DNA of 64,000 nucleotides from Neckera pumila (Eukaryota; Streptophyta; Bryopsida; Hypnales; Neckeraceae). A model generated the notes under the pieces. The model saw only the letters and a program-made list of their open reading frames with translations, did no database searches and was not told where the DNA came from. Position numbers and translations under genes: made by a program. How positions within the stretch are numbered: the stretch's first letter is position 1; every line of letters starts with the position of its first letter. This document shows, in pieces, positions 13,045-59,221 of this stretch. Where the stretch lies: positions 29,461,445-29,525,444 of the forward strand of contig OZ018411.1 of NCBI GenBank assembly GCA_963969595.1. Reading direction: 5' to 3'.

Positions 13045-13350
13045 AACACCGAATTAGACATTCTTGCACTTGGGGGGTGCGACATTGCACTTGGCTAGTA
13101 CGGCATCTAAAATGGACAGTCTCAAATGTTGAGGGGGGGAGGGATTATTGAAAACGTCATTTGCTCTTAGTAGGAGAAATTGCTTAGTGAAAAGTTGTCA
13201 AATACTCCATTCTTTATAATTATTTCATGAAAACCTTTCACACTTTTCACTCTGCACTACTTTTAAGACATATTACTCTGCACTTCACACTCAAATACTT
13301 TTAAATGCCTACAACTACAAGGTCAAAGAGCAATACATAATGTGACTTCA

Positions 13351-14850
13351 CTAATATATATTCAAATCATTATGCAGACGTTTGTCATCTAAGTTCTCCA
13401 TCTGCATTGCCATGTATTCCAGAAGATGCGCTTTAGCCTTTGGTGGAATGATTAGTGTCTCCTCTGTTTGCATGCCATACATTGTAATGTTGGGACCTAT
13501 AACATAACCCCTTCTCCCTCGACAAGGAACATCCATCTATGAATAATAGCGGCTTCTTTCACGGTCTAGTCCAACATCTCATCAGACGGTTCCCACATTG
13601 ATTCCATACAGTTCGTGTACCTCACTCGGTTACTACCTACTTCATTATATACTCCAAATCTTATAGTAGGCCAATACCACAGGACCTTCATCTTCGAGGC
13701 CCACGTCCCCTGACCAAATTCTAGCATCTTCCCTAAAAAAAAAGGGTACTCCTTCTCTTACTACCGCTAGTTGTACGATAAGAGCTACGTACTGCCCTAT
13801 AACAACGTCATTCTTTGAATTGAATGGAAGAAACGGATCTTCCGTTGCATCTTGTCATAGCTCTAGTATAACTTCATTCCTTTTGCCTTGAATCCTCCCT
13901 CCAATCACTCTTTGTGATGTTGCTTGTGTGAGTCTATCTCTGCAGGGTCCAAAATACCCCTTCCTCTCAGTATTTGGCATTATTGCCATAATCCTGTCAA
14001 CGGCAGCATTCTCCATTCTATTCCCATCCACCTCAACAACTGCACTTGAAATGTGCTCAAGCTTGCGAGCACTCATAAAAGCCTTTGTGTACAATGTTCC
14101 TTTCTCCACCAACTGCAACATCTCTGTCAAAGTGTCTATGTCTCTCCTATTCAGTACGTTCGAAATCACACTGAATCTTTGATTGATGTCCTCATGTATG
14201 TGGCACTGTGGCTGTGGCTGTGGCCCACTATTAAAAAACAAAGATGCAATTCCTTGAAGAAACCAAGCCCAACTAGTGCAGCACACATGGCAAACATGTA
14301 GGTGTTTTGTTCTCCCCTCCTGGTGTTATCCGCTTGAATCCTCAATGTTGGTGGCAATGAAAATATAACCGTGGTGCTGAAACAGGAGGAAAAGATAAAT
14401 TCTGCCCCTCCCTCGAAATTGTTGCCGTCGTTCTCACCTCGGAGGGACATGCACAATGAACTGAAGCATGACGCCATCGTATAACTTTATCTACACAATC
14501 TCTCATAGTCTTCCCTACCAACTCACCAACCCATTCTGTTTCATGTACAGCATGTGTAACACGAACCGCAATCTCAAAAGGACGTAATTTCACTAGGTGA
14601 AGTTCATCACCGCATGCAAAACTTATATCCACCATGCCAACTTCCACAACTTGACCTTCACTCCGAGAAGTTGAACCATGCCATTGGTAGTCTGGAATTC
14701 TCCATCCACAAGTGCATGACCTTCTTCTCCAAAAAATCTTCCTTGTACCACACGCGCCAATCTTTCACCTACGCTCCTTCACTCTGTAGCAACCATCGTA
14801 CTGCCCACAGTATTGAAAACCACTGGACTTCCAAATGCTTTTGTAGCCAT
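13351..14850 (-). pseudogene. Deletion remnant of DUF7869-type transposase (element A)
   Basis: On the minus strand, segments collinear with the 1046-aa protein of element B appear in order: an N-terminus starting at ATG 14850-14848 (…KAFGSPVV, matching …RGFGSPVA in B), a segment with GELVGKTMRDCVDKVIRW (13.9-14.65 kb), then LRIQADNTRRGEQNTYMF and LCFLIVGHSHSHS, the RFSVISNVLNRRDID block, and the C-terminus HLLEYMAMQMENLDDKRL ending at 13351. About 400 residues between the N-terminal and QADN blocks are gone, including the first candidate catalytic Asp. GHTHED has become GHSHSHS. There are also frameshifts and a stop near codon 24. It cannot encode an active enzyme, but its C-terminus shows where the B copy has shifted frame. 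Confidence 0.8.
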
Positions 14851-17800
14851 TTTCTTCCATCATTGGTGCATTACAGTCACGTTTTTTTCTTAAAAGTTCA
14901 TGATTTCAATATTTTTGCAAACTTGTACCCCTAATGTAAGGCCGTTCAAAAAATAATTTTCTAATAACAGCTTTTCAACCTTGCAAAAACACCAAATGAA
15001 ATAGGAAGAAATTCACAAAGTCAACTTCTACAATCAGAAGCACTAAAAACCACTTGATTTTGCTCTTTTTTTGTTTCCATTCCTTTGTTTTGACATTTCT
15101 GTGCAACTCATTCAATCAACACATAGTTCAAAACCAAACCATATTGCACCTACAACTTCCAATGCACTTTGAAACCCTCTAACTAACTAAATGCAAAATA
15201 CTTTTACTTCAATTTGAAAACAAAAACAATGTAAACACGCACAAGTACACTGATTGCATATTCTATGAATCATTAATGACCTTCGCTGAGTCCACGCTCA
15301 CTATACTCATGTTTTGGAGTTTCCATAGAGGACATCATTCGTAATCTTTTGAAACCTTTTACATTCCAAACTTTGTTGTAAACAAGCAAAGATAACCACT
15401 TTTATCCAATTTCTTATACATACTTTACCAGAACTTTATATAGAAGACAAACTCTCCTTCCTCTTACAAATTATTATGTGAAATTTAAAAACAAGAAGTC
15501 CACACATCTCAATTGGTAATCTCTAAATGCACAATGCTTTTTTCAAGAATCTCAGAACTGTATCACAATAGTTGAAGAAAAATGTTCAAGTTCAGGGTCA
15601 TTTGTTCATAATTATGTATTGTACAAACTATATATTAATGCGTTTAAGAACACGTATTAATATTATTAATATTATTATGAGAAAAATACTTTTCTTTCTT
15701 CAGAATTTGACTTCCTACTAATTATACTGAATTACAACAGATTTGTTAAAGTGAACGTCATATTCCCTATCTCCATACTCTCCTTTCATGTGAATGCAAG
15801 CTTTTACTTCTTTGAAACCACAAGTAATTTAGTTTCCGTACATGCTGAACTTAATTAATTGTACATGCATTTTTAAAACTTGCAAAAATGTATTGTACGA
15901 ATTTTGCATATGCTTTACTAATGAATTTTTTGGAAAATCCACTGAATTTTATATTCATCTTAGTAGTTTCCAAAAACAACAAAATTAAATTTTTTAAATT
16001 TTATAGACACTCATAATTGAACAAGTGTGAAAGAAGCAAAAACACTCTAATACATGCTTGGCAATTGCTTATGCTGAAGTGTCTTTCTATAAAATCAAAA
16101 AAATTCAATCAAGAAAGGAGAAAATAATTGTTTCAAAAACACCTTCTGCTTGCCTACCAAAAAAATCCGTTATCCCTGTTTCATAACACTCAAAATGTAA
16201 CTTTGAAGACTACAAAAAATATTTAAGAAAAAAACTTTGTCATGCTCATCCATTCAATATTCTATATAATTTATTCTTCATACAAGGAATTCACATGAAA
16301 TCCGCTTCTCTACATTCAACAAACAAATTTGTTATTCTAGATGATAATTTAAAATCTTAGTTTCCATACATTTGTTTCATTAGACCTTACAACCACATTT
16401 CTAAATTTATAGTATCATCGCTTTTGCACAGTAGTTCCGTTACAATGAAGTTACATCCAATTTTTGTTTTAAATGACTTTTTCTATATATCCAAAACAAT
16501 TCATAAAACCATGTCTACAATGAAAGTAATACATATCTCACTACACTTGTAATAATGCACTTCAGACATTGATTCACCTTTTTCAATTGGACACTCTACC
16601 TCAATGACATCCTTCAATTGGACACTCTACCTCAATGACATCCTTCAATTGGACACTCTACCTCAATGACATCCTTCTCTATGATCCTATATTCTACCCA
16701 CTGGAAAAAAAATTAAACATATTGTTTAAAAACTTACAAGGACGCAATCACTGTCATCTAAAAATGACAGTTTTGGAATGTCCTTTTCAATGTGTTTATA
16801 ATGTTTGTAGTACTTCATGTCAACCCCAATCCCAATAACATTCTATATACACATTCATTTCACATTGTGGAAAGGGAAGCATTAAAAAAGAAAAATTTAC
16901 TTCTCTGATTATAATTTCAAAACTACTATGCAATTATGCACTCGAATTGGTTGTCAATTGATGTAAGCCAGTGCTTGAAAGATCTACTAGGCTATATTTT
17001 TAACTTTTGAATTACTTCATTGGAAATGATAATAAAACCTTCCCTTTCCCCTAAGTCAAATAATATTGGAAATGCTTAGGCTTTTTGGAGTTCTACATCT
17101 CCGAATTTATAGGTTCCTAAGGTTTCTAAGGTTTCTAACTATACTTCATTATAGATAATTAACTTCTCACAAATTAAATCTTTTATATTTAAGAAGCTAT
17201 GGTAATGAGTCTCCATTGTCCAAAATTTTATTGTTGATCAACTTTCGTATACTAGGCAATGCCATAAACTCTATTGAATTGACACTCACTTACAAATTCA
17301 TGAATTGCTCATCCAACAATACTTGTCTTTCTTGACTCTATCTTTCAAATGCAGACAAAAGCTTCGACTCTAGTTTCAAAGATCTTGATTACAAATCCTA
17401 AATACAACCGCACTTACATATTTATGTCTCAAGTGTAAAGGAATCAGGCCTAACCGCACTTACATCAAAACGGTGCTTCTAGACTATAATACATTATTTT
17501 TTTTTTTTGGCACTTATCAACCGGGTAGTGTTCTGATAAACTCAAAAAAAAGTCCATAGTAAATGCACTTTGAAATTTAAGTACATGCTAATTTTTAAAT
17601 TAGAAGGGTCACAAATGATATTCAACTACCCATCCCTTGAATTTCAATTCAAAATAACTTTCCAAATGGAAAATTTTCACCTATAATTTCATTTGTAATT
17701 GATATATTCACAGTTTACAACTTCATATTACTGGAAGAATTTGGAAAATTTATCATTTCTTGCTTTTCAAGTCCACACCCAATACTAAATTACAGATTTC

Positions 17801-20800
17801 AAAAACCATTTTCATGATTATCAACTTGTTCAATGCACTTTTTTATACAAATTGGGATTATATACTTTTCTTTAATACACTGTTGCAGATTATGATTAAC
17901 CTATGTAAAAAAATGTTGGTTGCACTAGTACGTTCTCTAATGCACACATCTCAATTTAAAAGAATAAGTACAACAAATTAAGCATTTCTATACACTTCAA
18001 TTGCAAAATAGAACTTTGTGTACTACAATATGCTATTTTCATTGATCTTTGGTGAATTTGCAAAATGAACAATCAAATCACTTTGCAATTGAACATCAAG
18101 AATCCTAGAGGAAAAGGCATACGATAAACATAAATTATGAAAAACTTCCATTCATTATGTTTGTGAGAAAAAAAGATTTCCTTCTTACATCAATAATTGT
18201 AATTTAAAGATTCCTTTTGGTTTCTTGATTAATTGGAATAATGCACTTTACATCATAGTACAATTAGATTTTTATATTTCAAAATTTAATATGGATAGTT
18301 GGACATTTGCATAATGTATTAGGTTAATTAGTTATATACCTTTCAAATTTGAAATGAAGAAAAAATGCACAGACGGTACATCATATCTATTCTAAAACCT
18401 TCACTTCATAATCGATAACAATTTACAAACTAAAAATAAATAAGAAGTATTAATTAAACAAATTTGAAGAATTTGAAGTTCCCTGAACACTTTCAAGTAC
18501 AAATGCAAAACATGGCAAACTTTCCCACTTAGTCATAATAGCGAAGTTCAGAGTTTTTCAAATGCAATTTCACTACCAAGCAATGTGAACATGCACAAGC
18601 ATAAATTATACTTTCAAAATAAACTTTCATTTTGTAAATTAAATTGGAAATGTGGTTTTAAAAAATAACATATGCTAAATTCTATAATCATAATGTACGT
18701 GGTACCCTAGAATTTTTTCCAAATTCAAACATCAAAGTCAAATATATTTTTCCAACTTCCAAGTTCCAATTCATTATGTTCAAATGAAATTCTGAGCTCA
18801 AAAGGCTACTTCTTCATCAAAAATATGTTAAACTATCATTTCCATTGCAAATTGTCCTCCATTGCGGTACCATTGTTTGTTTTGTTTACCTAATTGTAGG
18901 ATCTTGTTGTATACTGTTATAAACATATTGAAAAAAAATTTATAACATTCTACGGAAACAAATAGAACTGACTTACATGAAAAAAAATGACATTCATTTA
19001 TTTGGAAAATTGTCTAAATGCTTTCTTTGTCTTCTGTATTAATAGAACTAACATTTCAGCAAAATACTTATTAATTCTTTGATTCTTGATGGTGAAGAAT
19101 TATATGCAGAGTCTTAAAATTTGTTTTCATTACATCAAACTCTATTTGTACTCCTAAGGAAATGATTGAGTGCTACATCTTTGTAGAAAGAATTAATAAC
19201 TGCTTCATTATTTAGTATAAGAAGAAATTCGATATACTGATCCTACCAATGACATTGTCCTAGCAGTACCACAAATTTGTAGAACTTGGCACTTCAAAAA
19301 AATTTGGAGAATTTATTTTAAAAATTCATCCAACTTCAAATGGATCATCAAAGATGCATTAATTCCCCCAAAAAAAAAATTTGCAACATTTGCGTCATAA
19401 ACCCAAATAGAGTGAACCAATTCTTTTTATATAGACTACAACATTTTAAGCTAAAAAAGGATTTGCATGTTTGTTTTTAAAGTCCATTAATAATTTTTTT
19501 GTGTAACTAATTCCATTTATGACTTCCTGTAAAGTACTATTGCATCTAGGCTTTGATAGATTTAAAAATGTAATTCAACGAAACCTATTACAATTTTCTA
19601 CCTTTAGAAACCCCGTTAGAAACATTGACATTGCCAAACCATTACCACAAACCATGAGGTCTAATTACCTAACATTGAGAATTCAAAGATTCTACATGTT
19701 AAATGCTTATACTGACAGTTGACCGGCCCCATCCACTTTGAAAATTAAATGGAACTACAATTATTTCCGAAATTAGAAAATAATATATTCAAATAAAAGA
19801 ACCTATCCTTCTTATTAATTTATCCCATGACCCTTTGAAGCATAAAATTGAAATAGTAAACAAACCTAAACTTCACAACAAATAAAATTCTAGACGGTTT
19901 GGTAGTTGGTACTTGGTATACGACACATTGTCAACATGCTCCATGTAAAGGTTGTAACCTTTAACAATCACTTAGCTCTACAGGTACTCATTACTTTCTA
20001 AAGTATTGAGTTGCGTTTCGTGTAAACATTGCAATTCTAGGGGCCTCACAACAAATGAAATCATTTTATTTCATTGAAACATTCACCAAAGGTAGAAGTT
20101 AGGTTTGGAAAAAAAAATTCTAAGAGCACTGACTCAATGATTAATAAGTTATTAGTATAATATGCACTAATTTCATTTGACCAATATAGCAGTCTAGGCA
20201 AATCATAGACAATCAATTTTTTAAGGAAAAATTGAAGTGCACTTCGGCTTACAAATTCCTACAAGATTGGAAAGCCTTCAATCATTTTGTTTTCATCAAT
20301 GAGATGAAAATAATGAGTTGTTTAAATGTGCACTTCTTTATAGATTTCCTACTATAAAATTCTCTTTGAAGTCCTTTCTTTAACTCTATTTTCAATGTTC
20401 ACGTAAAAAATAGAAATCATGGGATGTAGGTTCTACAGTACACCATTACAACAACTAGAATTGACACTTTTTAATTCCATAATTTCATTCTTCACTATTT
20501 ATTAATTTCAATCATATAAAATTGTATACTTACTATTTTTTTCTATATGTTGTACAATTGTAAGTGCTTTTAATTTTTTTTAAGATGTATTAAATTTTGT
20601 TTCAAAAATGATTACAAAGAAGCATCAACAACATAGACATTTTTTAGGGCAAATGCAGCCTTCTTAAAAGCAGTTGCTGTTTTTCATGTAGGACACAAAG
20701 AAGGATTTGCGGAAATGGAAAGCTCATATTTTACAATCTACATGCTGGTTTTAATTGACCTTCTCAAAATAACGTATTATGAGACCTCATTGTCTAAAAT

Positions 20801-20935
20801 TTTATTTTTTGTTTTTTTGGTACTTATACTAACAATGTCAATTTTTGAGCATTTTGTGTGATAATATACTAAAAGAACATTTGCTATTCCGTGAAGCCAC
20901 GTGTTCTCGCACATTTTCCTTTTTTGAATGTACAA
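14851..20935. other. AT-rich interior of element A, no gene seen
   Basis: About 6 kb of strongly AT-rich DNA without a supportable reading frame. The heptamer TGCACTT, part of the element's terminal core, recurs here (for example near 15171, 16554, 17569, 17837, 18242, 20238 and 20331), more often than base composition would predict. A 31-bp tandem repeat is listed separately. Confidence 0.5.
16582..16674. repeat. 31-bp tandem repeat, three identical copies
   Basis: Three exact head-to-tail copies of a 31-bp unit starting TTCAATTGGACACTC, at 16582-16612, 16613-16643 and 16644-16674. Perfect identity means the expansion is recent. Confidence 0.95.
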
Positions 20936-20939
20936 TTAA

Positions 20940-21866
20940 TCCCTAAAGGACCATATTGCTATTATTACTTCTTAGCAATACAAAAATTTTGGGCAGGTAT
21001 GTATGCATGAGATTTGCGTATTTTAGGTTCCTATTTTGATAGAAAGTGTGGATGAGGAATATCTTTCATATATATTACATTTCATTGCATCTGAAAATAG
21101 AATTTAGAAGTGAAGGGCTAATATGTAGTTTAATCCTCAACTCTAGCAGTCATGGCACATAAAAAAACACATTTAAAAAAAAGAAAAGAACTGACATTGA
21201 TTTATAAGATTTATATATACATGGAAAGCTTTGACTCATTCCAATTCGATCGATGAGTCAAAAGTTATGAGGATTTTTTTCTTCTGGGTAGTTAAAGATT
21301 TCTCTATTGTAAATTAAACTTTGAAGTCCTTTATTCTACTCATATTTCAATATTTTAAAAATAAATAAAATCATAGGATGTAGATTGTTTATAAAAATTG
21401 TGCAGCAATTACAGTTGCTAATTGTTCATTTCCATAATTAAATTCGTAACAACTTTGTATTTTGAAAGATTCTCTATTTATTTCTATTTATTATTTTTTT
21501 CCTTATATATTCTACAATTCCAAGATTTTTAAGCAAGTACTCAACTTGTGTATGTAAATAATCCAAAGCAACACTATCATTTTGGACATTTTTAAATAGA
21601 AAAGCGAGCTTGTGAAGTGCAGGTGCCTTGTTTTTGGCAAGGCCAGAAAATGATTTCAGTGACTTCAAAGGATTCTATCTAGCAATCTACAAGGTGGGAA
21701 TTTCTAAAATTTAACCAAGTGTACTCCAACTACCGCACTACAAAATCCTACGGCTACATGTGTCACATTTTATCTTTAATTTTAAATTTGATACTGGAAA
21801 TAAAAATGGAAGTTCCTCAAAGTTTTTATGACAACGAAGTCATGCAACTTCAATTACTTGACTTAA
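20940..21866 (-). mobile_element. ~920-bp TTAA MITE, family 1, diverged copy
   Basis: Starts after TTAA at 20936-20939 with TCCCTAAAGGACCA, the reverse complement of the usual right end. It contains GGGCAGGTA..., TATCTTTCATAT and ATCTACAAGGTGG-like blocks in reverse order relative to 28260-29180. The other end is worn and placed at about 21866 from GAAGTCATG.AACTT. It lies inside element A. Confidence 0.6.
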
Positions 21867-22940
21867 GACTTGAGTGAGTAATTTGATAACGGAAATACCA
21901 ACCTAACTTACAGAAGTGAGCATGACTGTCGAGAAATTAGTGTGGGGCAACCTAATTTCACTATTTTGTGTACAACGCAAGCACTTGAATCTATCAATTT
22001 TCGTATTGCCCAGCGATCAGACAGTCACAATTTCCACACTTCATGCGCATGAATAAGGTTGCAAATTTCCCCCACGGTCTCTGCAAACATGCCCATCATG
22101 CCTGCAGACACACTTGGTGCGCATGCCTAGCCTAACACTTGATCATTTCAGTTTCGAGATTACACAGGAATCCCGGTCTATGCACAAGGTGGAGGATGAA
22201 TTTCAAGCACGTAAAATGGAATGGGACTAAGATGGATGAAATCCCGTCGAGACAAACCCTAATCTTGCGGAGTTGAGGTCCATTGCCTCCCTCAGACAGG
22301 AAATCGGCTTCGCCCTTGCGGCTTCTGCTTTTTTCTCACAGATTGTAGCACGGATTGCCTCAAAGGAGAGAACGAAGATCGATTCAGAGGCATGGTAGCT
22401 TCGCAAGATTGAAATTCTCCTTCTCAACAAACCTTACAAAATTTCCTTCTATACGTGCGCCCTGTGACACATTCTGGTACTCTTGATACTCCGAGGGACA
22501 ATTTTGTTTTCTGCTGTGCTGACTCTTGTTCTCAGACGACATGTTTGTATGGCTGAATCGTTATTAGCATTCACCATCTTTAATTCGTTCAACGGAACGT
22601 ATAAAAGCCTTGCCACCATTTTTAATGTCTAGTCCGCGAACTTCAATCGAATACTGTGTACTTCAAGTTAGGTCTCGGATTCAAGTTTATTAGAACTGCA
22701 TCTTCATTATTGGCTTTGAAACAGCATAGCTGCTTTGCGATTGATTGAAGCCCGAACCTGCGAATGCGGTACTTAGAGCGTCACCACACTTGCGCTAGAA
22801 CAGAGCAACCCTAGAACGGCACATTCTACTTCAAGAGCGCCACAGTTGACTTCGGCCTTATTGCACTGTGGTTTGACTCCTTGCATGTTACTTTTAATTT
22901 GTGCGCACTAGATCCTCTATCTCCCTCTGCATACAGTTTG

Positions 22941-23017
22941 AAGAGAGTGAACAGTATGTGCTGTCAAACCCCCCTGCACGCGCGGGGGGTTCGACAGCAG
23001 ATACTGTTCACTCTCTT
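22941..23017. repeat. Long near-perfect hairpin, 34-nt arms
   Basis: Arm 22941-22974 and arm 22984-23017 are complementary at 32 of 34 positions, with a 9-nt GC-rich loop (TGCACGCGC). The arm begins AAGAGAGTGAACAGTAT and ends AACCCCCC. Mismatches fall at two single positions. The fold is short for a plant microRNA precursor but the right kind of structure; it could also be a terminal palindrome of an inserted repeat. Confidence 0.9.
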
Positions 23018-23632
23018 TGGGGACAAACACAAAGATTTTTGATCGTTTGCGAGCCCGAGAGGCCATTTGCCACCTCAGAGAAGTCAACTATGTTGATTCC
23101 GCGTCCCCGCGTTTATCTGTAAGTCGCCAAAAGAGGGGGATTTTTGACTTTTACCTTTCTTGCAGGTTGTATCCGCCTTTTGAGGTCGTCGCAGCTGGCG
23201 TGCTCCCGGTCCCCACGCGCTTTGGCCTCCTTGCTTCCCGCTCAGCTCCGCCTCCAGGTAAACACTCCCTCCCGGTCAGATTTGCTTCTGCCGCTCCTCT
23301 CCACCACCGTTGCCTGCGTTCCTTTTCTTTGTATATGCTGCAGATGAAAGCTACATTGCGCACCTGAGTTTTGCAAGGCCAATTTGTGAAAAGTTTCTTC
23401 TTCCTTGCTTTCACAGGTTTAGAAGTGGATAAGGTTACAATTCTTGAACAAAGGAGATCACATGTGTTTTTAGTGCATAAGTTCAAGGTTCTTGAACGAA
23501 GGAGAAGCTTGCTTACCTGGAGCGGAGTTTCCTTGTTTGTATTGAACGTGAGGTACGATTTTTGTACGAGGCTTGATTTTTGAGGTCAAATGATCTCCCT
23601 TGGCTTGCGAGGTCGACTGGATTAGAAAACTG

Positions 23633-23653
23633 GAGAGAGAGAGAGAGAGAGAG
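23633..23653. repeat. (GA)n microsatellite
   Basis: Uninterrupted GA dinucleotides, about ten units, in the island of element A. Confidence 0.95.
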
Positions 23654-26099
23654 GTGTAGTCTCTGGTGGCACCAAATCTGCGTCCATTTCTTGAATTGAT
23701 TAGCCCACGTCAGAACCTCTTTGCAATTGATTAGCATACGTCAGAAGCACTTTGCAGCGTTGCATCTTAGAAATCATGGGATGTAAAATTACTTGCTCAA
23801 GGATTACAACTTAGAAATCCTCTCCTACTCAAGGATTACAGCTTAGACCTGCGTGCCTGCGATGCCTGCGTTGCCTTGGTAAACCTTGCTGAAGCTTTAG
23901 CGCCACTGTTGACAGACCCTTCCCTATCCGTTTTTGGTCCCTGCACAAGGAGGCAGTTGATTCAACAGTAACTTGTAGGCTTCGTACCTAATGAGCCAGT
24001 TAGCATAAATGAAAAGATGGACTTGTTCGTAATGTATCAGGTGGGCTCTGTAGGAAGAGGAAGAGAAGATCGTGAAGGGCATCACAGACAATAACCAAGC
24101 AAAGTTTTGATAGTAAAGAACTCGGTGGCACATGCAAAGTCACTCAGTTAATTAGATCACATCTCCATTAGACAACGCTACCGTAGAATATATTCTTCAA
24201 ACGAGCTTGTGAACCCTAATATTATTTTTAGCTATGTCCAGATTCATCAACTACCGTGGAATTGGTTCTTTGTGTCTCCTTGACTAACCCACATTTAATT
24301 GTTTTGATAAGTTTCAGACTGCCAGATGGATGGCTTCATCTTCAACCCCGTGCTCAATGTTGTCATTCTATTTTTGATTTCTTAGTAGTAGTTTAGACCA
24401 TGTTATTAACACATACTTGGTTGCTCACACCCTAGTCGCAAGAATAATCAACGAGTATTATAATTTGAGATTATTGAACTTGTATTTCATCCTTTTTGCC
24501 ATACTCTACTCAAGTTTAACCTTGTCTTTCCGCTAATGAAACGACTCAAATGACTTCGAATCCCCAGTACAGACTTCAACCAGAGATTGCTTGCCTCTTT
24601 GTTTGTTCCTCCTGAGTATATTACGCGGGTCTCCTAGCACAGGCTGCTAATGGGTCTCGGGCGTAAACTTAATGATCAACTGGTATGCTTTCTAGGTTGA
24701 AATGAGTGAGTGGAGCTTTAAAAAGTTATGATGAGTGCTCTCTGAATGCTACTAGCTTCAGAAGGTGATGCATTATCATGAGCTCATTACCGTACATGTT
24801 TGTTTGTATGAATCAGGTGTTTTGGATTTACAAGCTGGCGGCGGACAAACGTGAGGACCAACAAAAAGTCTACTGCTTAATGTTTGCAGCGGCTTCTAGT
24901 TTCAGTGTTGGTGACCAGCAAAGTTTCACAATTTTTTGCAGTTTTGGTGACTATAGTTGTCAGTTTGTGTCCTCCAATCTCTCCTAAGTATGCAGATTAA
25001 CCTTAGGGTTAGAATCAAAGCACATGTACCACACCGGTGCGCCCACCATCTAAATCTGCACGAATGCATCAAAGAATGGCATTAGTATTTGAACTCATGG
25101 ATGGCTACCCACCAAAGCAAAGCTCAATTAAATTAGTGGAATGTACCTTAACATCATTGAAATTTGGCATTTTTGAAACAGGCATCCTAAGACACTTCTT
25201 TTTGTCGTTGTCTTTGCTCTACTGAAACACCGTTGTGGAAAGAAGGTTGCTACCTGTTTTGCTCAGGTATGTTTGCCTTGGATGGTTTCTTCCAAAGTTA
25301 ATTCTTTTTTGCTTTTGCTGTCTTTTCCTTTTCTATTTTTGGAAGGGGTGGGGGCTGCCTTACGAAACACTGTTGCTCCCTTGGGGGAATTTGTGGTGGG
25401 TGGTGGGTGGTGGATTCAGCAGATTATTAGTTCACAAGTTTGAGCTTCTTATTTGAATTCATTATTCTGATCTTCCTAAGCAAATTTCTAAGAAGGTGAT
25501 GATGAACTTTCTTTACATTAGGAACTGCATTAATTAGTTCGTCACTAGCTCCCCATCATTGTTCGATGTTCATTCTTCCTGGCCAGTACAGGCACAATTA
25601 TTGACCGACTTCAATTGAGGTCATTTGCATAACAGAAATAATTTTCTCTTTTATCACTGGGCTTTGTTCTTCAGCTGCTGTGGATCTTCTGCATTACTGT
25701 TTGCACAACTTGCAACTGTTATGCATATTGTAGGTGTGATAGCAATTGAATTAGGGCATACACTTTTCGTTCATTCATAGACTGTCCATTCTGCAATCAC
25801 AGAGACTCAGAAGTTGTATGTAGGCATTACGTCCTATTTGGCACTCCTGTGTACCATGTTGAATACAAAATACGATGGATTGACTGTATCACAAATGGCA
25901 TGTCGAGGGAAAAAATGGCAAGTTCGGTCAACCATGACTGACGCCAAATGGGCCACGAAGTTCACTGCATTAACTTACTGCATTGATATGCCCAAAACGT
26001 AAATTGTGCCACCACTAAGGTAGCAAGGAAGAGTGGAGGGCATGCAATGTTGGATTGTTTGTTCTTTCAAAACCAAATAGCAATGTTCATGTCACCTTT

Positions 26100-28255: not shown

Positions 28256-28259
28256 TTAA

Positions 28260-29180
28260 ACCTTAAAGTTCCTTGACTATGTTCTCCCCAAAAATGCTTT
28301 AAAACTGCCATTTCTAATACAAGTACCAAATTTTTGAAAAAATATCATTTTTGGACACATGCAACCATAGGACCTTGTAGTACTCTGGTTTGGAAATGTG
28401 AGGAAAAAATTTCAGAAATTTTCATCATGTAGATTGGAAGATATTAGCATTTGAAGTGGCAAAAGTCTTTTTTTTGGCCCTGCAAAAAACCGGGCAGCTG
28501 CACTTCACAAGGTCAGCTTATTATGAAAAGAATTCTAAAAAGGTTGTGCTTCTTTGGATTCATTCTTCCGGGCAAGTCAGCTACATGCTTGAAAAGTTTC
28601 AGATTATTTGGAATTATACAACATATAGCAAAAAAATAGTAAGTAGAAAGAAGTAGAGAATGGTTCAAAACACAAAATTGTTAAGAAGTTAATTATGGAA
28701 TTGAAAAATGCCAATCCCAATGGTTGCAGTGTTGTAATAAATCTACATCCTACAATTTTATTTTTTTTGAAATTATTGAAAATTGAGTGAAATAAACAAC
28801 ATCAAATTTTATTTTAGAATAGACAATCCATAATTGCCTGCAAACTAAAAATCCTTATAACATTTGACTCATTGATCTAAATGGAATGATTCAAAGCTCT
28901 CCACGTATTTATAAATCTAATAAACTAATTTCAAATTTTTATTTTTGAGAAAGTAACTTATTCTGATGTGCCCAGACTACCCAAGTTGAAAAACAAACAA
29001 CATTTTAGGCCATAACTTTTGACTCGTATTTCCAAATGTCAAAAAAATTTGTGCATATGAAAGATATTCCTTGTCCTCACCTTCCATAAAAATTTCAGCC
29101 TAAAGTATGCAAGTCTCTAGCCACACGTACCAGCCCAAAATTTCTATGTTGCCAAAAAATGCATATTGGTCCTTTAGGGG
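28260..29180 (+). mobile_element. ~920-bp TTAA MITE, family 1, copy in element A
   Basis: A 921-bp element between TTAA at 28256-28259 and 29181-29184. The right terminus TTGGTCCTTTAGGGG is close to consensus; the left reads ACCTTAAAGTTCC. It sits directly upstream of the remnant accessory frame of element A and is the copy most like 3536-4457. Confidence 0.8.
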
Positions 29181-29342
29181 TTAACAAACTTTACACAAAA
29201 TGTTTTTTTTTTTGCTCATTTTCAAAGTACAAGTTAAAAAAATCATAAACGTGATTACACATTGCTAAATTTTAAGTGTTCAACAACCTCATTACAGAAA
29301 TTATTGTTACTTTATCCTCTTTAAACTATAAATGTTTTTGTT

Positions 29343-40147: not shown

Positions 40148-40151
40148 ATAA

Positions 40152-41826: not shown

Positions 41827-41829
41827 GAC

Positions 41830-48300: not shown

Positions 48301-50895
48301 GTTTTCGTCGCTTGACATCCTTTATGGTTTAATGAGTTTCTCGTTCATTGACCTCATTTTATCAGTTGAATGACTCATCGAAAAATTAGTACTCCACATT
48401 CATACTTGTGTAGAATGGCTGCAATAAACTGGAATGCTTGAATCTTTAGTATGAAGATATGAAAATAAATGGTAGAGCTGAGGAGCAGCTACGTCCATTT
48501 TTAGGGTTATCGATCATTTGTTGTTGGATTGTAGTTCGTGGGAACTCCTGAAGGTTTAATGTTGACCCTTAAAACAAGCAGCAGCATGAGGAAAGTAAAC
48601 TGTTACTAGGTCATATTTTTTTTTAATGAAGTTGATCAAAGCACTTGAGATATCGGTTATTGGAAATAATGTGGTTTAAGGTGTACCTAAATATTATTTG
48701 GATGCCTGTAGGGCACTTATCGTGGATCCAAACCATTCGCAAAATCTGACTCAAAATTCTTCAATTGCTGGGGACGGTGAGCGAGTGTGTAATCTTTTCT
48801 AACTTGTGCCTAGAAGGAAATGTATGTCTTGCTATTCCGTGTTCTTCCATTTGAATGATTCTTGGAAGATGCATCTGGTATCGTCAAAAGCAGGATGAAT
48901 CTAGCTTTCCTTGGGTATCAAAAATGACTACGACAAATGTTTTTTGAAATTTCTAATAATCAAGATTTTATGAGAGGAGTGTAGTACAAATTTTCTTAGT
49001 AGATTTGATATTTGCAATTGATCGTCAAGGTAACTTGGGTATTGATATTATTGGAACAGTAATATTCATTATTTGCAGAAGAGTGTTTGAGCATTGAAGT
49101 CTCTCACTAGGAACAAGCCCTATGCAATGTACTCTCTAACGCAAACAGTATTAGGGTCCATAATTTTAATTTGCTCCCTATTTTGCACGGAGTAATAGAG
49201 AGACTAACAAGCTCAGTTGGTTTCTACCAAAATCGATTCAAAGAGCCGGTGTTAATGAGAATCCAATGTACTTTTTTGTATGCACTATTTTCCATGGACG
49301 GATAATTAGCACGTTTTCTTCATTTTGACCTCACCCAATGTTCTACAGTGTACTAGGTTAGGTACAGGCACAGTTTAAGTTATTCTCTATAACTATAAAT
49401 CTAGAATTTAGAGAAACACCGATATGTTAACGTAATTCAAAAAAATCTTGAAGATAAATGTTAGTAGCCTATGCAATTAGATTCCTGTGAAGGGCGGCGG
49501 ATGAGGTTCTGTGAGAGTACAATTGTTGCAGTACTCCCCTTTAAGTGGTCCTATTCGTATGCTATAAAGCAAAGGTAAATAGACAACCTATCGACGTGGA
49601 ATCGTTAATATCAAGGATCACCCCCAACAAATTGTATAATGAAAATTTGGCACCAAAATCATGACCTCTAGGTCATTGCATATCTGCCCATGCTCTTAAT
49701 TGCACCAAGATTGGAATAAACCAAAACAAGAAAGATTTTGTTTATTTTGTTTGCATCAATGAGCATGTTATAATTGTATTTTAATTAATGTACCAAAAAA
49801 GAGTAAGCTAGACTATGTTAATACACAATAGTAATTATGGGCTATGCAACTTCTACATGGTAGCAGCTACTCTTTGTTGTTGCAAGATTAGGAAGGATCA
49901 TTAAATGGTATCTAAGCTACTAGCTTTCTAGTCGTCAATGAAATGGGCTACAAGATGAAGGATTTGACTATTATAAATGGACATTTGAATGAAATGTTAG
50001 AATATTACTATAGGATATTACTTTAAAAATATACTAAAACAAAATTGCTAGGAAGATGATAAATTTTCAATCTGGCGCTTTGATTTAACAATCTTATTTA
50101 GATGGAGAAGATTGGTTTCTGGTGGTGGAAATAGAAAACACGGAAATAGTCATATTGGTGCATTTAAAATTGGATTTAAAAGTTATTTAAACTTTAAATT
50201 ACGTGGCATCTGGTGACTGAGGAAGTCAACTGAATGCTTTGGTTAGTGTAGAAATTGGTGAAATTTTTGTTTCTACAGTGAAGAGTCAATGCTTTGATTA
50301 TAGGACTAGTAGGTGCATATTTAGTTTCTATAGGGAAGAATTCAGTCATCCGTTGACGATTTCTCAGCCTCAATGTTGTTTAATGGTTCACATGCAAGTG
50401 TGCCTTTATTAATCTTACTAGAAAATAATCGTATTTTTTTGGGAAGCCTAAATGATAAATACCCTTATTAATATGCCCGCATATTGACTCAGAATCATTA
50501 GAAGAGTGCTACTTTATGGAATAGAGACGCTCTTCCACGATTGTTTTGGAAATACACTTTGTGGAGGTATTTTTTTCTCTTCATTTCCCTACCAGTTTAT
50601 TTTTTGCAAGATAATCTTAAAGTTTAGTATTATTGTGAATTTATACAAAGACAGACTATAAGCTTTTTTGATTGAAATTGATATGTAGAAAAATAGAATT
50701 GCCAAATAAAAGTTTTTTTAAAAAGAGCTTTTGTTTACATTTTTTTGCAAGCTCTGTACAATTGTACACTTGTCTCCTTAGTTTTTGAGTTTCCAATGGA
50801 AGATACCATTGCACCAGTTTAGTTAACTTTAGGGTTTATCTTATTGCCATATCTTTATTTAGAAGCAATATTATGAAGTAGAAAGGCCTTCACAT

Positions 50896-50984
50896 TGTTA
50901 GCTCTTAAAGGATAGTCATCCTTGGACCATTGATTTCAAGCCTCTCTATCCATCACTCTATTTGCAACTATTATGCAACCAGAT
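50896..50984 (-). repeat. Repeat end shared with element A
   Basis: The reverse complement of this segment aligns with 27107-27186 (GAGTGATGGATAGAGAGGCT and GAAATCAATGGTC). It ends in CTAA rather than TTAA. Family unnamed; the other end was not located. Confidence 0.5.
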
Positions 50985-52067
50985 ATGTTTGAAATCTTAA
51001 ATTTTTTTTTAGAGTAAAAATAGCGTGTCTTCTGTACTTTACAGAGAATTTAGAGGTTTTGGTCGAAAATTGGGTTCTTCAAGAATGTAAGAAAAAAACA
51101 TGAAGATGAATCAAATTAAATACAAAATAATTTCAAAAATCTAAAAATTTCTCCATGTGTGTATTACAATGGAAAACATCATAGTGTAAATTAAATTTTT
51201 ATGTCACTATATAATTACAATTCTAAAGACATTTTAAATACATTTTAAGTTAATTCGCAATATAATATTGAGTATTTCACATTTTTAAGAAAATAAAAAG
51301 TGTATAAAAATTGGATGGAATGACTTTCATTCCATTTGTTCTGGATTTGGGGTCAAACTCAAGAAATATCAGAATTTGTGGATAAATTTCAGTTTAGAGC
51401 ATGGACAAATTTTCCGGAATACACTAAAAAGGCATATTCTGTGATCCTTTTTTTTTTCAAACTTCTCATTCACTTTAAGACAAATACTTTCAAGACTACA
51501 AATTGATTTGCATACTCTTTAATCCATCATGAAAGATTTAGAAGAGAAATCTTGATGGAAAAATACTTTCAAACTCTTTCCAATTCATGAGATTATCATC
51601 CAAATGCTTGAAAATGGGGATGGTGTCGTTTCGAGATTCGAGGTATAAAATAAGGCTTCTTAAGGTTTAGTCTGATAATAGCTGATTTGTTTTTTAATTC
51701 TTTTGTCTTGAATTTATACTAGAGTTGTCATCCTCATTTGTGCACGTCATAGTTGGAGATGGCCTAAACCTAGGAAGAGATTGCTAGGCCGACAAAAAAT
51801 ACAGGAATTCAAATTTTTTTTAATGGTAACCATATTGTATTAAAGCCTTGATGATTCTTTCATTGTTGATCATTAGTCTCTTTTAAAAAAGTGAGTATGA
51901 AGAAATTCTCCCTTACAAATGACTTTTGTAATTTGTGAATTTATCGTAAATCATTCATTCATTTTACTTTAAAAAAAATTCATATGATATGAATAGAAGT
52001 ATGTACTATTTATAGAAAAATTGAAATAGAAAAATATCTTATAAATGTCAATGTATGAAGTTTTCAT

Positions 52068-52201
<134 letters not shown>

Positions 52202-54153
52202 ATTTCATTTTCCATTGGTTTTAACAATCATAGTGCTATATGATAATTTTGTACTATAAATCCTATAGACAAAAAATGGAATTATGTAGTAGTACAAGCT
52301 ACAAACATCATGTAATATTTATTTTTAGTAATTATTATTGGTATTTTATTCATTGCTTTTGCATAAATGAAAAAAGTACAAGTACACTATATTTTCCAGA
52401 AGGTCGTCACACCTTATTTACTAGTCAGAGTTTATTGAAGGTTGTTCATATTATGTAAGGTAAGGGAGACTATTGTGGGCAACATTGTCATGCTTGTTGC
52501 ACATGGAAGTTTTAAAATACATACTACAAATATTGATTTACCTATAATAGATTGAATTCCCATATATGATGTGCTTAGTTGTACAGAGTGCTCATGTTGT
52601 TGCTTTTTGCTAGGCATTATTTCTATGAAACAAACAAGTAATATGTTATGCTTTAAAAGGAAGGATGATGAAAAAAATGTGGAATGAGTTCCACCAGACT
52701 TTTTAATATGTCTAGTCATACTGGAATAAGAGTACAAACCAATGTGTATTTGAACAAATGTGAACTAATAATATGGAATAGGGAGGATTCACCATATTCT
52801 ATTGTTGCTTTTGTTAAAGAGGAGTTGCTATTGCTCCAAAACTATTAGGTTTGTTAATTGCTTGAATATGAAACAATGTCTGAATAGGAACAATTAGAGT
52901 TGTTTAGGTGTTCATGAAGTGCCGGTGATTGATAAGTTTTATTTAAGGAATAACTGCTACATACTTTGTTAAGGCTTTGTAGTTCATCTCTTATATGAAA
53001 GTTATTTTGCAATATTTCTTGACTTGTGCTTCATAATAATAGATTAACGTTGAAAAGGACATCTTTAGAAGATAAGTGACTTGTAGATGTATGTAATATA
53101 TGTATATTTGTAAATGTATTTCATTTGGAGGAACAGATTCTTTTCATATTACAAATATTTCAATTACAATGAATAATAACATTTATACTTTAACTAAGTG
53201 AGTTAAAAAACATACAACTTGAATTCAAGAACAAGTACTAGGAATTCTATATAGTCTTTTAATTTCTAGATAATGATGTTTTAGTAATGTCCATACAATC
53301 TTTTTATAATGTAATTTTTCTTCCATTCGGTGTTTGCATGAAATACAGAGTCATCCTTGTTATAAAGAAAAGCTCACTTGGAGAAGACTAGAGCCACATG
53401 AACTTTCAAAGTTTAAGCAAAAAATTGATATGTATAAATCATGCTTCGTTGTACAATGTGAAGTTTGATCTATTACCTTTGGATAGTGATGTGGAAGTTA
53501 TAGAACTTTGGTTGTTTAGACTATTGGAGCATTTTTTGCATGAAGTAATATAGCATATACGTTTTTCAGTTGCATACAACAATAGAATTCTGAAATACTT
53601 AATTTCTATTAAAACAACTTCAATGTAATGAAAGAATGTGTAGTACTTGGTGTGAGGCATAGAAATAACTGAATTGTCTCTAAAAAGTTTTACTTAAATT
53701 TTTTTAATTATATTTTGAAAATGATAAAACAAGATTGTTTGATCTGCCTACTAACTTTCAGAATCAAAATGAAATCATTATATATAAAAGTAGTGACTGC
53801 CAAGAATTTTAAGCCCTGAAACTTAAGCAAAAAATATTTGAAGTCTTTTGTTCTAATTACATAAACTACAATACAATGTAACTTATTATTTTCAAAACAA
53901 AATATCTTACAATGTAGTTGGTTTGAATTCACGAAGTTACTTGGAGACTTTTGTATAATAAGATAGGGCATGATGGTACAATTATGTATATCAAGATTAA
54001 AATGTGTATTGCTTATTAATGTTCTCAAGGATAATGGCGCTTGTATATTTTTAGATTTTATTTATGAGTACAATCAATAATGTATTAAAAACAACATGGA
54101 AAGTTTTAATGTTTAGGGTTTTGAGTGGTTTGATGTTTGTTTGCAGGGAAGCC

Positions 54154-57100
54154 ATGGTCATCAAAACATACAATGATTGGATTGAACACGGATGGTGGCT
54201 TCTGGCAACAGACGCACATTCGCCGATGCTGTGGATTACAGATCGGGCATTACAAGGAGGGCAACGTTGGTCAGCCTTGGGCATCGAGCATGGGAAGCTG
54301 ACATCCATCAGTACTGCCGCTCAAGATGTGATTTTCATAAATGTCACTTTGGAAGAAGGTGATCTAGCAAAGTTTAAGTTGCAAAGGAATTTCATGATGG
54401 CTGCAGTTCCTTCTATTTGTTTGGATATGGCCAAGCTTATGAGGGTAATGCCCAAACTTCAAGAGCATTGGATTTCAATGCCAGAATCAGTACAGAGCGA
54501 ACGTAGTGCAGCAATGCAGAGATTCTTGGGATTGAATCCACAAGATCTTCTGAGAGCAAAGCAGTACGTGGCGGAAACGTTGGCTTACGAAGAGATGGAG
54601 AGAACTGATCCCTCCAGTGTTCGAGACAAAACCCCCCCATGATAACCTGAAGAAACGGATTCGTTGTATCGAATATTGGCAGCTCCAGTGAACGTGGATT
54701 GGGTGCCTGTTCAAGATCGTGCCAGAAGGCATTCACCACCACGATTAGTCGAAGACAATGAATCTATTTCCACTGCTGTTGGACAACAAAGAGTAAGAAC
54801 AAAGCGCGGGATGAGCTCACGCGGGGCACTACTGGAACGTTCATCACCTAGTGGAGGCACATCTAGGGGTGGTGTTCATCACAGCGGTTCTATATCACCA
54901 CGTGTAGGACCTAGCACAGTGTTGTCTATAGGTGTTGGTGTCAACACCTTTCCAGTGTCAGTATCCACACGAGCGGAGGCATCTAGGGAAGTTGCCCAAA
55001 AAAGAACACGACCTCGAGGTATTGGAGCACCCAGAACTGTTAATCCACGTGGAAGAGGAAGAGGAAGAGGGACTACACGACAAATACGTCATGAAATAGT
55101 GGCAGATACTGGAGGTGCTACAAGAGAAGTGGATGCAAGCGTAGTGCAAGAGGAGGTTGAACAGAGCGAAGAGTTCGAAATTATAGAATAAGCCTCTGAG
55201 GAAGAAGAGACTCATGGAGCTCACAAATTGGCAACTATAGGTCCACTTGTACAATTTCCATCGAATGACGATTTTCTAGCTGGATACTTGTGGGGTATGG
55301 ACTTAGTTTTCAATGCAAAAATTGCAAATGTCTGAGCAGTTGAACATGTAGAGACAAACCATCGAGCATTGACCGATAAGCATGTTTCAACAATGTACAA
55401 GAGACTTTATAGGAGAAAGGAGCCTAATATGTCACCATTAACTTTGCGACCGGTTGCTTATATTCTTGAAGGAGTCAATGAAGAAGGTGCTCCAGCACGA
55501 AGGGAGATTCCTTTCTCAGAAGTTGGTGCAGCGAAAGAGTTTGACTCAATGTACCTACAGAATGGTAGAGCATTTCCTGGAGATCCGAACATGTCAAAGA
55601 TTAATTGGTTGGAGAACAATATCATCTGGGAGCCCGTAGATGGTCAACATGTGGTTGCAGCATGCAAACAAGGTGAAAGACAGCATGACACGGGACTGAT
55701 TGACGATGAAGAGTACCAGAAGATATTTGCAGAGAGGAAAGCACGATTTGTTGTGTACAATGATTCCAAAGTGTACATTGAAGCTTCAGTGCGAATAAAT
55801 GCGAAGGAGTTTGAGAGAGAGTTCTACACAACAATGGAAGAGGACCTGGTGAAGTTACGAGCCATTTGGGAGGCATGTGGGAGACCAAATCCGCAATCAC
55901 GTGCAGATGATGCACAACGAGCACGAGCTGTAACAATGGCTGCAAGTGCGCTGCACTGGACAAGACCATATGCAAGAAGTGTATCGCTAGGAGGGATTTA
56001 TAAAAGGTTGGCAGACTATACTCGTTATGCATGGCAAGAAGATGAAGTAGCGTATGAAGCTGTTCTTCAAGTGTGCCGTGATTACGAGGATGGATTTCTT
56101 TGGTATAGCAAAGAAGATCAGAGGAAGTGGAAGAAGTATGCAGATAAATTATCATTGAATCCAAATATTGATGTGAGGGACAACAGGAAAAGGATGGAGA
56201 GGCTTTGGCTAAGACCACTAGTGAGGGTTCCGAAGGCGCATTACCTACGATTGGCGAAGGAATTGTCTGAGAAAGAAATTGTTGATGGTGAACGTCCGAA
56301 GCAGAGATTATTTTTCAACCAAGCTAGCAGCATAACTCCTACGAAGGGTACTTTAGCTTGGACAATGGAACGGATTCAACAAAGAAAAGCAGTACGAAAT
56401 GCACTACGATGGTTGATGGTTGAATCCAAGGTTGCACATCCAAGTACAATACATAGTTTTTTCCTCATAAATGTGCGAAGGTTTGAAGGACAAGACCATG
56501 GACAGATGAATGTACTAGCTGAAGTAGTGGATGTGAAAATGAAGAAAGCGTGGTCGTCTCCTGTAGTGAAGACAGTGGAAGCTCTCCGTAGATTTGAAGC
56601 TCTCATACCTCCAATGATAAAAGATCATTACGCAAGTATTCAGCGTGGAGAATCAGGATACCACAGATATAGCATGGACGTGAGAAGTTTGGATGAGGCG
56701 TGTTGGGATTGGCAAGTGATTATATCATCTGGTTCACCTGACACCAACAATGCAGTCGTTCCTATTTGATGTAGAAGGGATTTCTTTACACAAGGGGTTG
56801 TGAAATTGAGAACGCCTTGTTTGTGGATATTTGATTGTAGGCGGTGCGGTACAAGAGGGAAGAATGCAGCTTGGACAAACGTTGAGTACAGTACCGCCAT
56901 GCATAAAGTACAACAATGGATGGCAAGCATACACAGGTGGACCGCAATATTTTTGTTTCCAGCTGGAACCTATTTCAAGGAGGAAATGAAGAAGAAGATG
57001 GTATTGCCATCAGAGTGTACATGGCGAAAAAGTTACTAGGTGTTTTCACCACAAACAGTGTCCACATATGTACATGACTTGCAACACAATGGTCAAACAA

Positions 57101-58731
57101 ATCGTAGTGTACAAGCGGTGGGAGAAGTTGCAGTTATAATGGTACATCCTACTGGATCACGGGTGGCAGATAGTGTACGAAGTGATTGTGAACAAGTTCC
57201 TGTAGTGTTTACAGATTCGTGGATTGAGGGGAGGATGCCTTCTGTGGTGGATCAAAAAGAGAGAATTCCTACGGAGTTGCAGCAGTTTGTTGCTACATAT
57301 CTACCGGAGAAATGGGGGTTAGTTACGGTTGGCATTACAACAGCCGTACCAACTATATTGCAAGCTTCTTTTGTAGGTAATCAAATGATTGTGTTGGATG
57401 GTTCGATAGATCGTACTCGCTTTCTGTACAATACATTGCAGGAAGTGAACCGTACAAGAATCCAAGTGCAAGGAGCTGCAGTGCCAGTTACTGGAAACGT
57501 TGAGGCATCAACGCATCAAAACAATAGTACACCTCGTGTGGAACCTTCAGTAGTTCATGTGGAATACTTTAGGACAGAAGAAGATGACAAAGACCTTTTT
57601 GATGATGAAGAAGAGGACGATGAAGACGGCGAAGATTTGCACTCAGAAGATACACCAGTACGAGAAGGATATGAAATAAGAGAAGGAAGTGCGAATGACA
57701 AAGAATATGTTCAAGGGGAGGAAGATGAAACTGAAGAAGACGAGATAGAAGAGGACACAGAGAATGGCTCATTAGATTCGGAAGAGGACACATCCGATTC
57801 AGAGGACGGTTCATCAGAGGGCTCTTCTGATTCATTAGAAGGAGAGGATGATTCATCAAAAAGAAAGAAAGCTGTTCAGAAAAAGAAAGGGAAAGGCATT
57901 AAGAAGACAACAGAGATTCAGAAGCCAATAAGGAAGTCGAAGACTGCAATGTCAAAGCCACGTACTGTTCATCAAAGTAGTGTCTCTGAAACGCATGAAC
58001 TTCAAGTGGTGGGTGAAACCGATTATCACGTAACATCTGAGGCAGAGGCGGTTTTACAAGAAGATGTTACAGAAGATATGGATGTGGAGGAGGTAGCTGA
58101 AGTTCGTTCGGTTACAGAGAATCAAGGAAGGGAAGACAATGAAGGGGGAATGCAAGACACAACATATAAAGTTGCAGTATTAGCAAGCGTGATCCTTTCA
58201 ACTGAAGAGGCAGTGATAGGAACAGAAGGGATCATACCTGTGGAGGGAATGGTTATTTCTGCAGTGGAAGAGGTGGATACGGAGATGGAAGATAAGATGC
58301 AAGAATTAGTGGGAGTGGTTTTGCCTCCAACATCAGGAACAACAACCTTGCAAGAGACAACATCAACAAGTTTGGCAGATGAAACACATTTCGATATTAT
58401 AGCTTTGGCATGGACCAGATCGATGACAGAAGGAGTAGATGGATTTTTTTATGACCGAGAGGGTATTAGGTATCGTCGTACCATAGTTGAGGGCCAGTAT
58501 AGATTTGAACAGGTAACATCAGTCTTGGAAGAAATTTCGCACGTGGATGAAGAACCTTCTGCAGGAGTAGGAGATGTGGTTGATAGGCCCTTGTTTTATG
58601 GTGAATTGCGAATTCCACATGATGTTGCTGCAATATGCACTGAAGAAGCTTTGCATAGTGCAGAGGGAGAAGGCATAAGAAGCCAAACTTCAAGGGTAAT
58701 TGCGGAGACACCTGAGTCACTTGAGGAATAG
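54154..58731 (+). pseudogene. Long accessory gene of element B, six in-frame stops
   Basis: One phase reads through 1,526 codons from ATG 54154 (Kozak-like GCCATGG, after a TTTGCAG acceptor) to TAG 58729-58731. It is interrupted only by TGA 54640, TAA 54643, TAA 55189, TGA 55333, TGA 56767 and TAG 57037, with no frameshift. Segments in order: an N-terminal globular part with YNDWIEHGWWLLATD; an RG-rich stretch (RGRGRGRG near 55050); a large domain with VDGQHVVAACKQ (about 55636-55671), like the DGQHR/ParB-type motif, followed by INAKEFEREFYTTMEEDL; a Cys-containing FDCRRCGTRG (56845) and a Rossmann-like GLVTVGITTAVPTIL/MIVLDGS (57316-57405); an acidic run; a basic KRKKAVQKKKGKG (nuclear-signal-like); and the C-terminal VDGFFYDREG block shared with element A. 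Function unknown; ParB- or methyltransferase-like roles are weak inference. Confidence 0.6.
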
Positions 58732-59190
58732 AGTGATAGATTTTATATGGAGAGTGACCTTAGCGGATAGTAATATTTTGATTGTAACAGCAACAGAGTT
58801 TGGTCTTAGTGTGTGATGAGTACTTTATTCTACTCTTGCAATGGACTAATAATATTTGGTGATGTGTTATTTTGAAATCAAGTTCAAGTTTTTTATAATA
58901 CTATGTAGATAAATGGAAGTAAATGAAATGAATAAGGAACAATAATTGCATTGTTTGTAGTAGGAAGTGGGCTTTTGAAGAATAATGTATTCGGAAACTA
59001 ATAAATTTATACAATTATCAAGTGCATCTCTAGTCACACCATACATAAGTACACTATATGCAATAGAAATGAAAGGTTCATGTTGTACAATTGGAAGAGA
59101 GAAAAGTTCATGAATTGCTTGTGAAATTGGTATACCACATTTGTGAAAATCAAAAAAATGCACTTATTTGGTTGCCTAATTAATGCACTT
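58732..59190. other. 3' flank of accessory gene to right terminus of B
   Basis: AT-rich, no gene. It contains AAGTGCA/TGCACTT motifs (59025, 59158) and ends in the palindrome TGCACTTGGCCAAGTGCA at 59184-59201, which overlaps the right terminal repeat and is also found at the right end of A. Confidence 0.5.
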
Positions 59191-59221
59191 GGCCAAGTGC
59201 AAAAATAACAAATTCGGTGTT

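Follow-up and report, generated by a model that had tools for sequence, protein, structure and literature searches.

Probable Large Cut-and-Paste DNA Transposons With Two Divergent Genes in the Moss Neckera pumila

Two Large Elements in One Stretch of the Genome

The window analyzed here is a stretch of 64,000 nucleotides from the genome of Neckera pumila (GenBank assembly GCA_963969595.1, contig OZ018411.1, positions 29,461,445 to 29,525,444 of the forward strand). It contains two elements, which we termed A0 and W1, and which are very probably insertions of large DNA transposons of the cut-and-paste type that follow a two-gene, divergent plan in a land plant. One gene, beside the left end, encodes a putative transposase with the domain DUF7869, and the other, beside the right end, encodes an accessory protein. 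The new features are the co-inherited partner protein of about 1,500 amino acids and the divergent layout. A previous sequence-only reading described the two as copies of one family with one plan. Both proved to be real transposon units, but judged by their sequences they are members of different subfamilies, with a transposase identity of 58–60%, and W1 is a gutted deletion derivative which retained its ends and lost most of both genes. With stops in the accessory gene and an altered transposase tail in A0, and only pieces of genes in W1, neither element looks able to move alone.

Ends, Target-Site Duplications and Empty Sites

The two elements and their borders have the following positions in the window.

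32919..59221, element A0 of 26,303 bp from subfamily A, delimited by paired ends, the TTTA/TTTA duplication and a sister site with a single TTTA
32919..32947, plus strand, left terminal inverted repeat of A0, beside the transposase gene
59193..59221, minus strand, right terminal inverted repeat of A0, beside the accessory gene, continuing inward as the palindrome CACTTGGCCAAGTG
32915..32918, target-site duplication of A0, left copy, TTTA
59222..59225, target-site duplication of A0, right copy, TTTA
13045..30481, W1, an internally deleted element of the subfamily B type, 17,437 bp long, recognized by its ends, a B-type left end and sister sites
13045..13073, plus strand, left terminal inverted repeat of W1
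30453..30481, minus strand, right terminal inverted repeat of W1, with decay at its outermost bases
13041..13044, target duplication of W1, left copy, now TTAT (CTAT at the empty sites)
30482..30485, target duplication of W1, right copy, now ATAT (CTAT at the empty sites)

The inverted repeat at the element ends is about 29 bp long, starts with AACAC (AACAC...GTGTT) and includes TTGCACTTGG. This core occurred seven times in the window compared with 0.14 times expected, and none of 100 shuffles reached seven; one of the seven copies (57462) is located inside the accessory gene of A0. The end sequences were AACACCGAATTAGACATTCTTGCACTTGG at 13045, AACACAAAATTCGTCATTTTTGCACTTGG at 32919 and, on the minus strand, AACACCGAATTTGTTATTTTTGCACTTGG at 59221. 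A terminal core shared by two left and two right ends had been proposed, and the positions 13045, 32919 and 59221 were exact; the fourth, 30479, was wrong, since W1 ends at 30481. The proposed lengths of about 17.4 and 26.3 kb were borne out. Copies of TGCACTT were concentrated near the ends, with 2 and 4 in the terminal 300 bp of A0 compared with 0.035 per 300 bp internally, and 3 and 3 in those of W1 compared with 0.25.

The sequence-only reading had suggested a search for matching target duplications and for sites lacking the element. For the duplications, 24 end pairs were taken, namely that of W1, those of 4 of the 22 B loci scored in the genome and those of 19 of the 22 subfamily-A loci, A0 among them; A1, A4, and A20 were left out because one end was not found. 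Exact 4-bp duplications were present in 19 of the 24 pairs (15 of 19 in A, 4 of 4 in B, 0 of 1 for W1). The pairs without one were W1, A3, A5, and A10, with at least one decayed end each, and A6, with clean ends and unlike flanks. The copies with exact duplications (n = 19) measured 18.2–37.9 kb with a median of 21.8 kb, the four B copies 20.3–20.9 kb. As the duplications varied at every position and were 77.5% A/T in 20 sequences, with CTAT inferred for W1 as one of them, the target is no fixed word.

Empty sites were found as sister repeats within the same genome for both elements. The joined flanks of W1 returned 40 rows. Of these, 35 were near-full-length loci (88–95% identity), three matched only in part, and two were the flanks in the window itself. 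In all five sister sites that were aligned, the insertion point read CTAT once, and the present TTAT and ATAT are each one base off. The joined flanks of A0 gave three further matches on the same contig, which extended only 19–27 bp beyond the junction. The sister site at C4:29408420-29408760 (L073) was 98% identical and had a single TTTA, and an element of the third subfamily is inserted there 19 bp beyond the junction. Of the other two (81–82%), one had TTTA and one GTTA. For another A copy, A19, four distinct uninterrupted repeats matched across the junction at 73–82%. It follows from the empty sites that the terminal AA/TT is element sequence and not target. These duplications and empty sites indicated that each end pair (13045/30481 and 32919/59221) moved as a unit. 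That the window merely holds a chance set of unrelated ends and genes is hardly credible. The heavy decay of W1 and its no longer exact duplication would fit such a coincidence, but it is already contradicted by the empty sites of both elements, and also by the genome-wide pattern.

Some observations concern the choice of target. The third-subfamily insertion 19 bp from the site of A0 in L073 may reflect a target preference. Two elements, L030/L052 (C9:7.02-7.04 Mb) and L055/L056 (C7:19.97-19.99 Mb), seem to have landed close to the centre of an inverted repeat of their target, as their flanks resemble each other from both sides, which could be chance or a preference for hairpins. Two junction-spanning matches of B2 were rejected as empty sites, as they fall in the palindromic flanks of B2 itself.

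The Two-Gene Plan Recurs Across the Genome

The searches covered 339.5 Mb of genome. The LFY family had five matches in it, each above the family's cut-off, as would be expected of a land plant. With the DUF7869 protein of A0 as the query, 44 loci (46 rows, two loci being split) were scored among 751 candidates, 22 at an identity of at least 79% (subfamily A) and 22 at 58–60% (subfamily B). A search with an accessory exon gave 91 rows, which corresponded to 84 loci after seven second-piece rows were merged by hand. A divergent, outward-reading accessory partner was located about 14–34 kb away at 42 of the 44 loci (22/22 in A, 20/22 in B). The accessory gene was always of the locus's own subfamily, A with A and B with B, and both unpaired B loci are on C5. 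In a wider list built on the DUF7869 domain, 150 of 792 candidates were scored and split by the start of the profile match into 88 A/B-like and 62 other loci. Among the A/B-like loci, 73 had a divergent accessory partner at 12.9–32.6 kb (median 17.5 kb), while random placement yielded a mean of 0.46 pairings and a maximum of 4 (1000 trials, with the lengths of C5 and C11 estimated). The order of end, gene, gap, gene, and end seen in the window is therefore repeated throughout the genome.

The ends are linked to the genes in the same way. The left-end pattern of subfamily A had 62 matches, of which 31 were of the A type and 31 of the CATATAAAATT type. A transposase in the expected orientation was present within 8 kb of 25 of the 31 A-type left ends. 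Among the other six, C3:24334979 has a transposase about 18 kb away, and C2:39968969 has an accessory gene and a right end about 43 kb opposite, with no transposase scored. The right-end pattern had 25 matches, 23 of which were linked to an accessory gene. The A-type terminal sequences are mostly found together with the two genes and not apart from them.

The DUF7869 Gene

A minus-strand gene of the DUF7869 type had been proposed beside each left end, and the domain exceeded the cut-off in both, although the gene of W1 is a remnant.

33386..36526, minus strand, DUF7869 protein of A0, 1046 amino acids, putative transposase, 170.8 bits (cut-off 26)
13354..14880, minus strand, DUF7869 gene remnant of W1 with two internal deletions

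The frame of A0 is open over 1046 codons. Its final residues are unlike those of the family, whose conserved tail is encoded in a different frame, at 33358-33453. In W1, the domain match at 13855-14325 (minus strand) scored 31.2 bits, and the pieces of the remnant correspond to residues 1-175, 592-688, and 845-1076 of a 1076-amino-acid subfamily-B frame. DUF7869 (PF25273) was the sole family matched by the transposase in Pfam at E up to 1. A single-sequence search provided the 12 homologues of the A0 protein that were used (50–66% identity) and a profile search gave 18, none of which had an informative name. No relatives on viral or prokaryotic contigs were confirmed among 87 and 80 pattern matches, and the search of solved structures returned only chance-level matches to BAH domains (E 1.9 and 2).

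Across 13 sequences, D508, D590, E629, and D630 were invariant and D632 was conserved in 12; the cluster E629-D630-x-D632 is a candidate for the third acidic residue. This is the order expected of an RNase H-like DDD/E enzyme, from which we infer that the DUF7869 protein is a transposase. The gene appears to be under purifying selection, with a mean ratio of nonsynonymous to synonymous substitution rates (dN/dS) of 0.31 (28 pairs, 8 copies).

The Accessory Gene

54154..58731, plus strand, accessory frame of A0, about 1,526 codons, with in-frame stops at 54640, 54643, 55189, 55333, 56767, and 57037
29379..29939, plus strand, accessory remnant of W1, only the last 205 or so residues

The accessory protein is encoded by one uninterrupted frame of 1,507 codons in the copy L067. 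Both right frames of the window matched the C-terminus of this frame, W1 at residues 1302-1506 and A0 at 1403-1463 (E 2e-4), which supports the earlier proposal that a plus-strand accessory frame precedes each right end and that the two are homologous at their C-termini. Three homologues of the protein were found, with a conserved middle part and a short conserved C-terminal motif, and no Pfam match was better than E 0.05.

It is unlikely, in our judgment, that the accessory gene is captured cargo outside the transposition machinery and that the DUF7869 protein acts alone. The accessory protein is without a domain of known function, and no such accessory match was found within 40 kb of any of the other 62 DUF7869 loci, mostly of a second group described below; a DUF7869 element can therefore apparently dispense with the gene. 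(At least one of these 62, C8:17042876, adjoins an end of the A type and is probably an incomplete copy of subfamily A.) On the other hand, the 42 paired A and B loci keep the accessory gene in the same place and orientation and matched by subfamily, whereas variation between copies would be expected of a true cargo gene. The gene is also under purifying selection, with dN/dS values of 0.46, 0.44, 0.33, and 0.29 in four comparisons (stop codons skipped).

The Spacer Between the Two Genes

36527..54153, A0 spacer, with a variable centre and with outer parts that align in order to those of two other copies of subfamily A
42550..46427, plus strand, nested high-copy repeat of about 3.88 kb in A0

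Positions 36406-41706 and 49554-55400 of A0 aligned in order to the gap of A7 (74–88% identity), and likewise to that of A8, while the centre differed. The 3.88-kb repeat was complete at 22 other places (88–92% identity) and partial at about eight more (81–92%), with 30 of 420 candidates scored. The rest of the A0 centre was shared with one other copy, A9, at 82–95%. The gaps of B2 and B3 had almost nothing in common, and the comparison of A with B yielded the start of the accessory gene, a dispersed repeat and, at a few short places, matching frames. No conserved third gene or further coding content was found in the spacers compared (A0, A7, A8, B2, and B3). The frames in A0 at 43.2–45.2 kb that resembled cargo were rejected because they belong to the nested repeat. 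The two-gene, outward-reading design given by the sequence-only reading held across the genome, but its description as cargo-bearing was not supported by the spacers compared.

A GC-rich centre with opposite strand skew on either side recurred in A0, W1, A7, A8, B3, and B2. A splice-acceptor-like sequence stood directly before the accessory start codon in A0, A8, and B3, less clearly in L067 and B2, and a similar one was located some tens of bases upstream of the transposase start in A0, A7, L069, and L070. Two other features of the A0 spacer are a (TA)n tract of 63.5 perfect copies at 52071-52197 and a repeat at 40347-41275 that is related to the target of A19, the flanks of A3 and a stretch of the B3 gap.

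A Possible Mechanism and the Points Against It

In the mechanism we propose, the DUF7869 protein or the accessory protein would bind the copies of TGCACTT clustered at both ends, and the pair would excise the element and reinsert it at a cut staggered by 4 bp. Both genes may be transcribed outward from the GC-rich centre, probably through long 5' introns, because splice-acceptor-like sequence precedes the accessory start codon in the copies inspected. One reading goes further, to an unreported two-component system in which a DUF7869 transposase depends on a dedicated partner of about 1,500 amino acids from an unfamiliar family, the two genes being separated by a spacer of 10–14 kb that is alike between subfamilies in length, composition and strand skew while its sequence is not preserved. 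As a whole, this combination is tentative, and we consider it more doubtful than likely.

Several results weigh against the interpretation as two-gene transposons. In the wider list, 13 of the 88 A/B-like DUF7869 loci had no accessory match inside 40 kb and two had one in the other orientation, and 11 of the 84 accessory loci were without a partner. The ends of subfamily B were looked at for just 4 of the 22 scored loci. D632 is replaced by N in one of the 13 sequences, and no relative of known activity was found in the Pfam and solved-structure searches. The structure models of the DUF7869 and accessory proteins were too poor to show a fold, with a mean predicted local distance difference test score (pLDDT) of 44 and 39, respectively. 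The splice sites were read by eye in a few copies, and it is from co-occurrence and selection, and from nothing else, that the role of the accessory protein would follow.

Related DUF7869 Groups and Other Features of the Window

The second DUF7869 group comprised about 60 scored loci. Two of them, L071 (G000:C4:29345000-29353500) and L072 (C3:35611700-35620200), are 98% identical and have an intact frame of 953 codons. The transposase-side end of this group is different, starting with GGCCATATTCG (26 matches). One protein of the group aligned by profile (hhalign probability 99.7) and retains G-H-T-H-E-D-I-D. The group looks younger than A and B. The CATATAAAATT-type left ends, none of which (0/31) was linked to a transposase in the left-end linkage test, look like a third subfamily. 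One of its members, L068, is a derivative of 8.2 kb that has both ends and small transposase-like pieces and is flanked by no matching duplication.

Elsewhere in the window, an open frame on the minus strand at 9292-10245 matched the DDE_1 transposase (E 8e-9). The frame at 61927-62652 on the plus strand is, we assume, like parts of ribosomal protein S23/uS12, which would place a host gene close to A0. A dispersed repeat (60–82% identity) occurs at 581-1277, 3532-4470, and 28256-29193 and inverted at 20527-21650, and one copy lies inside W1 beside the accessory remnant. There was no Rfam match at the gathering score in the window.

Comparison With Known Transposons

By description (duplications, acidic residues, size and host), Sola is on balance the most likely superfamily. 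The motifs DN..ENKN and GHT....D presumably resemble those of Sola transposases. Sola elements have 4-bp duplications and a DDD transposase, are found in moss, exceed 15 kb in some members and have terminal inverted repeats of 11 to 1124 bp (PMC10741241). Sola1 of Physcomitrella appears in PMC9033089, and Sola2 has AT-rich 4-bp duplications (PMC3627910). The present elements are alike in the 4-bp duplication (19/24 exact, with CTAT and TTTA single in empty sites) and in having terminal inverted repeats, of about 29 bp. They differ in size, as most Sola elements are 2–9 kb and a bivalve study put its eight curated Sola1 elements at a mean of 5.4 kb (PMC10294476), and in the fixed second gene, which is read outward at the opposite end and finds no mention in these Sola descriptions.

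A place in the CACTA/Mirage/Chapaev group is quite improbable. CACTA/En-Spm elements have subterminal repeats and two proteins, and like the elements here are large with short inverted repeats; however, the latter are without CACTA/CACTG termini, without a 3-bp duplication and without a CACTA match in Pfam. The group is suggested by CAC at positions 3-5 of the ends, the 4-bp duplications and the large size (PMC4079192, PMC10741241). CACTA elements can exceed 20 kb, with ends CACTA/G and 3-bp duplications (PMC10741241), those of a red alga were called significantly enlarged at 16–20 kb (PMC6431247), and in Chapaev the duplications are 3-4 bp long and the termini begin with CAC (PMC4079192). Plant cut-and-paste transposons had been said to be rarely this large; the elements are large indeed, but these CACTA elements and the longest Sola members are precedents. 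The resemblance to Chapaev lies in the 4-bp duplication and the CAC near the ends, but the ends begin with AACAC, the outer AA belongs to the element, and the transposase has no match other than DUF7869. The ends and the absence of a Pfam match therefore speak against both CACTA and Chapaev, and the duplications speak against CACTA as well.

PIF/Harbinger elements are smaller and belong to different families. Their Nuwa lineage likewise combines a transposase with a second protein, but has 3-bp instead of 4-bp duplications (PMC12730594).

No description of the two-gene design was found in the literature on moss, giant transposons, Chapaev, and Sola, with subscription literature mostly outside the search, and DUF7869 was not mentioned by name in the literature searched. 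Pfam assigns no function to this domain, which here gains an element context and a likely transposase function, and a large unannotated protein family can be named as its probable partner in transposition. Because it has many copies, clean duplications and empty sites, the family is datable and testable, and its size and layout pose the question of why 10–14 kb of apparently non-coding, unconserved DNA are kept between two genes. Compared with the systems above, the family is probably a Sola variant distinguished by its large size and two genes, with the partner gene as the new feature.

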